Positions 4,894 to 6,821 of a stretch of DNA of 22,550 nt are shown here, one piece after another. Under the pieces are notes generated by a model. It did no database searches. It was not told the DNA's origin and worked only from the letters and a program-made list of their open reading frames with translations. Location: positions 1 to 22,550 of IMG/VR virus record IMGVR_UViG_3300022854_000013, one strand, 5' to 3'. Position numbers and translations under genes: made by a program. The first letter of the stretch is position 1. Each line of letters begins with the position of its first letter. The stretch is from a virus.

Positions 4894-4908
4894 TATATTT
4901 ATATAATG

Positions 4909-4938
4909 TTTACAATAGTTAAACTATGATCTTATAAT
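4909..4938 (+). promoter_or_regulatory. sigma70-type promoter of the capsid gene
   Basis: TTTACA (4909-4914) and a perfect TATAAT (4933-4938) are 18 bases apart, immediately after a strong hairpin. Initiation near 4945 would leave a leader of about 145 bases before the capsid start codon. This would give the capsid gene its own strong transcription, as expected for the most abundant virion protein. Confidence 0.5.
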
Positions 4939-5089: not shown

Positions 5090-5401
5090 ATGGCAATTAC
5101 AACGACCACACTCCTTCCGGCGCCAGTAGCGCAAAGTTTTAGTTATAAGCTTTTATCCGTTCCAACACCCAACTTGATTCACAATATTCCAGCAATAAAA
5201 AAATCCATGCCTAGGAACGGTGGAAAGATTCTGCGTATGCGCAGATATAACGCTCTCGGAACGGCAATGGTACCTCTCGGAAATGGAGGTCTAACCCCAC
5301 CGCCTCAAACATTATCAGCGGTTGACATAGATGCAGAGATGTCATTTTACGGAACATATATCGTAATAAATGAGCAGGTTGCACTGCAAAATCAAGACCC
5401 T
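5090..5401 (+). CDS. major capsid protein, exon 1 (N4-gp56 family)
   Basis: Exon 1 encodes residues 1-104 of the major capsid protein, which forms the icosahedral shell. The reading frame goes on past 5401 only to a stop at 5462-5464, adding about 20 unrelated residues. The last exon residues (YIVINEQVALQNQDP) match the N4-gp56 capsid family, in which this is followed by a segment like that encoded from 6186 (VLNEAAARLG...LTRDML). The exon ends exactly after codon 104 (CCT), so the intron is in phase 0. The last six bases, GACCCT, pair with GGGGTC at 5411-5416 to form intron helix P1 with a U.G pair at the splice site. The spliced product is 315 aa, close to the lower end of the family's usual size. 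Confidence 0.88.
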
Positions 5402-5456
5402 AAAATGAATGGGGTCTATAAACCTTTTCTGATTGACTTGGAAGCCGTAGTAGCTT

Positions 5457-6002
5457 TTAGCTAACCGGCGACAGGGGCGAAGGATTTTTTAAAGGATGAT
5501 TATGCCAACGAGAATTAAGATTTCGACTAACCAGCAAGCACTCCTCTCTGATGTTAATAGCATCTTCGGTGGGCTTTGTATGCTGTCCAATTTTATTGGT
5601 AAAGGTTTGTCTAAATTTTATCATATTCTCGCAGTGTCTCTTTTTTATGACAAGGTACGGAAGAATAGAGTGACAAAGCTCCAAGAGTTTATCTCCTGTA
5701 GCAACCCAAGAATAAATCGGTCTTTCGTAAGCTCTATTGGATGTCCATCTTGTTTGAGCGGAGTTAACTCCCTCAAAATTAGTGGTGAGCCATTCAATGA
5801 GAATTTTATCGGTGCTGTCTATTTTAAGAAGGCCACGATGATGCTTAGAAATTTCACCGTTATATTTTCTATTAGCTTGTCCTATATAAAGACAACCTTC
5901 TCCATCTACAATTCCAGCCAAGTAAGCCAACTTAACAGGCTCATAGGTTCTTGGAATGAAATTTGGAGATCTGCGGTAGTATTTTTTACGTTCTTTTTGC
6001 AT
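5457..6002 (-). CDS. intron-encoded LAGLIDADG homing endonuclease (antisense orientation)
   Basis: A 181-aa protein with the motif LAGIVDGEG at residues 28-36. This is the single LAGLIDADG helix of homing endonucleases that act as homodimers; D33 and E35 fall in the region of the catalytic acidic residue. It is followed by the usual beta-sheet part and the helical element SILPYLVIKKRHCENMIKF (residues 113-131), ending in the common EEC...LN region. It would cut intronless capsid genes and so spread the intron. It is coded on the strand opposite to the capsid. AAAGGAA lies four bases before its ATG, and a promoter lies just upstream. The last dozen residues are antisense to the intron core (P5-P6a), so one stretch of DNA serves two functions. 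Confidence 0.88.
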   Translation of the reverse strand: MQKERKKYYRRSPNFIPRTYEPVKLAYLAGIVDGEGCLYIGQANRKYNGEISKHHRGLLKIDSTDKILIEWLTTNFEGVNSAQTRWTSNRAYERPIYSWVATGDKLLELCHSILPYLVIKKRHCENMIKFRQTFTNKIGQHTKPTEDAINIREECLLVSRNLNSRWHNHPLKNPSPLSPVS

Positions 6003-6021
6003 AAAGTTCCTTTCGTTTATT

Positions 6022-6050
6022 ATTATACGTTAGTTAACGATAGATGTAAA
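6022..6050 (-). promoter_or_regulatory. sigma70-type promoter for the homing endonuclease
   Basis: On the minus strand TTTACA (6045-6050) and a perfect TATAAT (6022-6027) are separated by 17 bases. RNA would start near 6015, about a dozen bases before the ATG at 6002, just enough for the AAAGGAA ribosome binding site. This is the closest match to a consensus promoter seen in the window. Confidence 0.6.
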
Positions 6051-6185
6051 ATTATCCACGCTGAACGACTAAGTGAAAAGGCCCTATTTATAGGGATGCG
6101 ATAGTCTGGACTCCAGAGGAAACCTGGAGAGGGAAGTTCGAAGAAGCTTCCTCGCCTAGAAATAGGTCATAAAAGTAACAGAATG

Positions 6186-6821
6186 GTTTTAAATGAAGCA
6201 GCAGCGAGACTTGGAGTCTCCCTTCGTCAGACAGAGGATCAGTTAACAAGAGACATGCTTACTGCCACTGCGGGCTTCATTAACTGCACGGCTGGCGTCG
6301 GTGGAGATAATCCGACAGAGATAACTTTACCAGATATTCAAGATGTAAATCGTGCATTGCTTGGTGACGATGCTTATACCATTATGGACAATATTGAGGG
6401 TTCAAATAAGTTCGGATCCGCGCCTATTCGTGATGCATATTTTGCTATGTGTCATACAGATTTGAGTAAAGGCTTGGAATCTGTTGCTGGATTCATTCAA
6501 AAGAATCAATATCCAGCTCCAATGAAAGCTTTAAGATCTGAGTGGGGCGCAGCTGGCAATACTAGATTCTTGCTCTCTTCGGTTGGTTCTATAACGCCGA
6601 ATGCTTCTCTACTCGATAAGGATGTTTATAACATTATAGTTGCAGGCATGGAAGCATACGCTGTAATTGAACAAGATGGCCATTCTGCTCACTTTCTTTA
6701 CAGACCGGCAATTTTTTCGGATCCACTTGCACAGAATATTTCAGTTGGTTATAAATTTGCAGCTGTACCTAAACTCTTGAATGACCTTTGGGTTCTCAAT
6801 TTACGCTGTACATTGGCATAA
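6186..6821 (+). CDS. major capsid protein, exon 2 (N4-gp56 family)
   Basis: Exon 2 supplies residues 105-315 of the major capsid protein. It opens VLNEAAARLG and LTRDMLTATAGFINC, the core N4-gp56 pattern, and later contains PIRDAYFAMCHTDL, SEWGAAGNTRFLLSS and LAQNISVGYKFAAVP, typical of the family's C-terminal half. An ATG immediately upstream (6183) makes the exon look like a separate gene, but no ribosome binding site precedes it and the protein lacks the N-terminal third. Joining GTT at 6186 to CCT at 5401 keeps the frame and restores the family's sequence. The next gene starts 13 bases after the stop, so capsid and the following virion gene are probably on one mRNA. Confidence 0.88.
   Translation, partial: VLNEAAARLGVSLRQTEDQLTRDMLTATAGFINCTAGVGGDNPTEITLPDIQDVNRALLGDDAYTIMDNIEGSNKFGSAPIRDAYFAMCHTDLSKGLESVAGFIQKNQYPAPMKALRSEWGAAGNTRFLLSSVGSITPNASLLDKDVYNIIVAGMEAYAVIEQDGHSAHFLYRPAIFSDPLAQNISVGYKFAAVPKLLNDLWVLNLRCTLA

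Follow-up and report, generated by a model that had tools for sequence, protein, structure and literature searches.

Probable mobile group I intron in a phage major capsid gene, and candidate coreless introns in related phages

Introns are known from phage capsid genes. In the mycobacteriophage LittleE, splicing of a capsid intron carrying an antisense LAGLIDADG ORF was demonstrated using RT-PCR (PMC3706429), and a capsid intron in the lactococcal phage Tuc2009 is cited in the same paper (PMC3706429). Several introns in one phage gene have been described in the Bastillevirinae (PMC11878797), small degenerate group I introns of 56–81 nt occur in fungal rDNA (PMC3160393), and engineered group I spliceozymes, a laboratory construct, use one core to remove an intron that is not its own (PMC4094466). 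A search of the open-licence literature turned up neither a capsid gene with intron sites in the dozens nor, in phages, coreless introns beside core-bearing ones.

Here, we analysed a 22,550-base virus record (the window, meaning the whole stretch of DNA), in which an ORF list located two frames at 5090–5464 and 6183–6821, each with a start codon. The locus resembles LittleE in its host gene (the major capsid gene), the U at the exon end, the G at the intron end and the bottom-strand LAGLIDADG ORF. Its clade, of tailed phages, differs from LittleE in phage type and in that the introns occupy dozens of sites, with as many as five in a single gene, where LittleE has one; moreover, splicing in LittleE was shown by RT-PCR, whereas the group I assignment made here is based on covariation. 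A sequence-only reading of the window had called the capsid gene an unusual intron host, which proved overstated given the LittleE and Tuc2009 precedents and the hotspot in this clade. LittleE thus provides a known example of a capsid intron bearing an antisense LAGLIDADG ORF, and the novelty lies in the intron family, not in the window copy. The features of the window are as follows.

5090–5401, plus strand: capsid exon 1, residues 1–104 (TIGR04387 positions 1–102, PHROG 1357 positions 22–135; 99.6% identical in strain L468)
5396–5416, plus strand: P1, GACCCU (5396–5401) with guide GGGGUC (5411–5416), from the sequence; 6/6 pairs in 170/183 family introns
5402–6185, plus strand: predicted group I intron, 784 nt (precisely absent from L468; core located by model R1; helices covary in homologues)
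5407–5410, plus strand: P10 guide, pairing with GUUU at 6186–6189 (four pairs, two of them G.U), from the sequence
5423–5429, plus strand: P3 5' strand, pairing with 6075–6081 (homologue alignment, location in the window)
5437–5479, plus strand: P4 (CUUG/CAGG), P5 (GCC/GGC) and the P6 5' strand (homologue alignment, location in the window)
5457–6002, minus strand: putative LAGLIDADG homing endonuclease ORF, 181 aa (PHROG 5046, I-MsoI; homologues antisense in 53/57 introns)
6022–6050, minus strand: promoter-like TTTACA-17-TATAAT preceding the endonuclease ORF (11/12 match, by consensus only)
6057–6153, plus strand: 3' catalytic core with P6', P7, P3', P8, P9 and P9.1 (model R1, 87.2 bits, E 2.7e-15)
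6185, plus strand: terminal G of the intron (sequence; conserved)
6186–6821, plus strand: capsid exon 2, residues 105–315 and stop (TIGR04387 positions 101–322, PHROG 1357 positions 132–340)

The proposal that the two frames are parts of one N4-gp56 capsid protein was borne out by profile searches. The frames matched consecutive parts of the TIGR04387 (N4-gp56 capsid) profile, and PHROG 1357 ("major head protein") was split across them in the same way. When joined, the 315-aa protein matched TIGR04387 over its full length (positions 1–322, E 2.5e-39), scoring 135.4 bits against a cut-off of 60. Of the 80 best IMG/VR relatives, 79 had an uninterrupted capsid frame, mostly of exactly 945 nt; the intronless relatives were 70–75% identical, continuous and of the same length as the joined window product. 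Since relatives of the same length are intact, the insert is 5402–6185, 784 nt. These boundaries are exact in L468, a strain of the same phage (97.7–99.6% identical) that lacks precisely this segment and in which 5401 and 6186 are contiguous. The restored QNQDP-VLNEAA junction drawn in the earlier reading holds as well. L468 does have another, different intron, at capsid site 116.2. Upstream of its capsid gene it also contains some 250 bases (L468:3377–3627) that are missing from the window at about 4901–4915. Four genome_contigs matches, considered as clues to the host, fell in MAGs of unrelated phyla.

All of the elements previously drawn from the sequence (P1 with a U.G pair, P3, P7, P8, P9, the terminal G and P10) were located in the window, and the same helices covary in homologues. 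The U5401.G5411 pair of P1 lies at the 5' splice site. P3 is CCUUUUC/GAAAAGG, GGCG of P6 (5476–5479) pairs with CGCU (6059–6062), P7 is GACUA/UAGUC (6067–6071/6102–6106), P8 is CCCUAU/AUAGGG (at 6082–6095), and P9 and P9.1 occupy 6111–6129 and 6131–6151, respectively. We evaluated these helices in an alignment of 40 introns of the same family that lack an endonuclease gene (HEG-less introns), taken from many different sites in the capsid genes of relatives. Standard pairs made up 95.1% of the aligned helix positions, as against 39–46% when the helices were slid as a control, and 358 double-sided changes were counted versus 106 ± 8 in shuffles. Such changes occurred in 33 of the 43 pairs; covariation was seen in P3 and P5–P9.1 and was strong in P3, P6, P7, P8 and P9. 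The window copy therefore has a covariation-backed P3–P8 pseudoknot with P7 and P4–P6.

The Rfam search suggested in the earlier reading gave a divided result. No Intron_gpI match was obtained in the window at gathering or lax thresholds; in L196, by contrast, the HEG-less intron occupying this site matched Intron_gpI (RF00028) end to end, with 31.8 bits, which is below the Rfam gathering score of 50, and E 1.3e-6, which refers to a small search of 281 bases. The missing match at the gathering score reflects a limit of model sensitivity, not a structural feature of the class. Matches of the window to c-di-GMP-II and other weak Rfam matches were taken as chance. R1, built from homologous introns as a covariance model of the 3' core, found a single match in the window, at 6057–6153, and none in 31 of the top-ranked relatives, almost all of which are intronless. 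Together, the covariation, the L196 match and the R1 match identify the insert as a group I intron.

The antisense LAGLIDADG ORF, which the sequence-only reading did not mention, lies mostly within the P6 loop, with its 3' end overlapping the P5/P4/P6 strands. It is a single-motif ORF containing LAYLAGIVDGEG and matched PHROG 5046 (E 9e-21) and the I-MsoI chain 3fd2 (E 8e-6); the Pfam LAGLIDADG_1 match was weak and suggestive only (E 0.022). An AAGGA ribosome site of its own accompanies the ORF, and its predicted homing endonuclease product would mark the intron as mobile. Close relatives of this protein are all encoded antisense in the same capsid gene, at the same place or at most 2 nt away, and in introns of at least 480 nt 53 homologues were antisense and 4 sense. 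On the plus strand, a 202-aa open sense frame (5496–6104) overlaps the endonuclease ORF, and a long open sense frame is present at that place in many sister introns too.

Taken as a whole, the sequence evidence makes it almost certain that the major capsid gene is interrupted at 5402–6185 by a mobile group I intron whose excision would restore the capsid protein. In the predicted pathway, the intron RNA would fold through P3–P9, guanosine would attack at U5401, the 3' OH of the exon would attack after G6185, and the joined mRNA would encode the 315-aa capsid protein. The endonuclease may be expressed leftward from its own putative promoter and would cut intronless alleles, leading to homing. 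It is very improbable that the insert stays unspliced, with the capsid gene either broken or translated as two separate frames whose products assemble as two chains. Both frames do have a start codon, but that of frame 2 lies within the conserved intron end (AACAGAATG), the ribozyme helices covary, near-identical contigs (L082–L087) keep both the intron and the frames intact, and family introns occupy dozens of other sites in the same gene with in-frame joining. Equally improbable is a homing endonuclease gene residing on an intron that has lost the ability to splice: the endonuclease frame is intact and overlaps ribozyme strands at its 3' end, but the window retains every core helix intact and gives a high model score, and without splicing the phage would be deprived of its main virion protein.

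Comparisons of strains point to intron gain and loss among near-identical phages. L083, 99.8% identical to the window in the upstream part, has the window intron and a second, HEG-less intron of 239 nt at site 184.0, and L468 has a different one. In addition, L003 is 100% identical to genome contig L379 over 2394 nt but lacks one intron; the missing segment is precisely the 201-nt intron predicted for capsid site 261.0 (L379:5284–5484). L003 is probably spliced RNA, as judged from this alignment, and could also be an intronless allele. Whether L003 is cDNA or not, the comparison indicates that the family boundary rule is correct to the base, because L003 equals L379 minus exactly the predicted intron.

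Using a spliced protein-to-DNA aligner, we called 183 distinct full introns in the capsid genes of relatives, 170 of them with a complete six-pair P1. They occupied 37 site/phase positions by a strict rule (P1 6/6, P10 of at least three pairs, P4 motif) and 53 on P1 alone, and one capsid gene carried up to five introns, one of the five being a mini-intron (L089/L112). In about 1 Mb of capsid-centred loci, R1 matches lay nearly all within the capsid gene; the exceptions noticed were in L151 and L159. Dozens of positions in the capsid gene of this clade have thus been entered by one and the same intron family. Landthaler and Shub reportedly described, in 1999, a gene of phage Twort with three introns, which is like this clade in having several group I introns in one phage gene. 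The Twort gene is not known to be a capsid gene, and we know of no coreless introns in Twort.

In relatives, not in the window, we found two classes of much shorter insert, as follows.

L104, L114, L119, L191, L201, L232, L243, L314, L338, L345, L353, L384 and others, capsid residue 88: mini-introns, frame-breaking inserts of 28–59 nt
L097, L160, L350, L355, L371, L389 and L436, capsid residue 118: micro-introns

The longer class, the mini-introns, was present in at least 38 capsid genes, none sharing 95% identity, at sites 81.0, 86.1, 88.0, 91.2 and 104.0, each just upstream of a full intron and lacking a catalytic core of its own. All 38 had a 6/6 P1 with U.G at the junction, a P10 of at least three pairs and a terminal G, a combination that arose in 31 of 11,400 trials with shuffled inserts; a P1 with G.U and a P10, as in the fungal small introns, were found in 38/38. 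The guides covaried with their targets, both in P1 (UACGGU/GCCGUA, UAUGGU/GCCAUA, UUCGGU/GCCGAA) and in P10 (ACC/GGU, ACU/AGU, ACG/CGU, ACA/UGU), and a permutation test gave 22 double-sided changes in P1 versus 4.2 ± 1.6 and 29 in P10 versus 7.5 ± 2.2. Removal of the inserts restored conserved residues, even where the site lay inside a codon (86.1 and 91.2). L179 carried a complete intron at site 88.0 with the same guide as the mini-introns. No P7-like element was seen in the mini-inserts by eye, only about 10–20 nt following the guide, and a search of IMG/VR with the junction pattern found no spliced transcripts of mini-intron loci. Among 74 loci fetched by exon 1 (residues 1–88) only, a full intron at residues 92–125 accompanied 22/22 mini-introns (two of these full introns being cut off by the contig end) versus 14/52 loci without one (p 1e-9, the relatives not being independent); this link could have arisen through co-conversion.

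A second hairpin spans the 3' splice site in many site-88.0 mini-introns (stem of at least 8 in 39% of mini-introns versus 10% of shuffles). The intron of L086, L119, L345, L346, L360, L367, L380 and L385 lies at 104.2, 2 nt downstream of the usual 104.0, and the loci with a 104.2 intron also carry a mini-intron at 88.0, except for the distant L171.

At 118.0, a known intron site between CGU and CAA, the micro-introns are frame-breaking inserts of only 4–5 nt (UAUG, UACG, UUCG or UAAUG), present in seven records, two of which (L097 and L160) look like the same phage. All seven had GGCGGAGU in the exon directly before the 144.0 intron, and with it the complementary guide GGCGGAGT in the exon preceding that intron. 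For GGCGGAGU, the P1 partner is CUCCGU, while CAA or CAG can serve as its P10 partner (e.g. in L350 and L097); GCGGAG was present at that place in 7 of 186 other capsid genes. Together, these results strongly suggest group-I-type guide pairing in both mini- and micro-introns.

Other readings of the short inserts were rejected. Ribosomal bypass or programmed frameshifting is disfavoured by the lack of matched codons, by sites inside codons and by the occurrence of 4-nt and 5-nt inserts at one site. In the mini-inserts the take-off codon would be GGT and the landing frame is usually preceded by TTG, AAG, ATG or CTG, so the matched take-off and landing codons of T4 gene 60-type bypass were not found. 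Exon skipping, joining 88.0 to 96.2, 104.2 or 116.2, would break the frame. As for assembly error, the sole frame-breaking insert outside introns in alignments scoring above 900 was at the known site 118.0.

We consider it fairly probable, from the arrangement of these sequences, that several introns of one capsid mRNA share a single group I core, with mini- and micro-introns removed by the core of the full intron 26–96 nt downstream. The cutting is ascribed to the downstream core because the short introns have no core, and by position. Removal of the mini-introns by an unknown factor is an alternative. Another is splicing by a cryptic minimal core, as claimed for the 56–81-nt fungal rDNA introns, but micro-introns cannot contain any core.

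The window copy adds a well-supported case of a homing group I intron, and its host gene encodes a product that the phage requires in very large quantities. In the family as a whole, an essential structural gene has been invaded at dozens of sites, and at least half of the message can be intron. Coreless introns, if confirmed, would show how introns lose their own catalyst and come to depend on a neighbour, which is normally considered only in connection with spliceosome origins; a shared core, if true, would parallel, among group I introns, the transition from self-splicing introns to a common splicing machine.

Among known systems, T4 gene 60 bypass resembles the short inserts in having a short non-coding gap in a phage gene. 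Mini-introns differ from it in lacking matched take-off and landing codons, in lying inside codons too and in having P1/P10 guides. The fungal small introns are closer, sharing with the phage mini-introns a P1 with G.U, a P10, intron/3'-exon pairing, which the 3'-junction hairpin described above resembles, and the loss of most core helices. Fungal introns, however, retain P7, end in U and reside in rRNA genes, whereas the phage mini-introns are 28–59 nt long, end in G, have no P7 that we could see and are followed downstream by a complete intron. Finally, a core shared in this way, if true, would be a counterpart of the engineered spliceozymes that is natural and acts within the same transcript.
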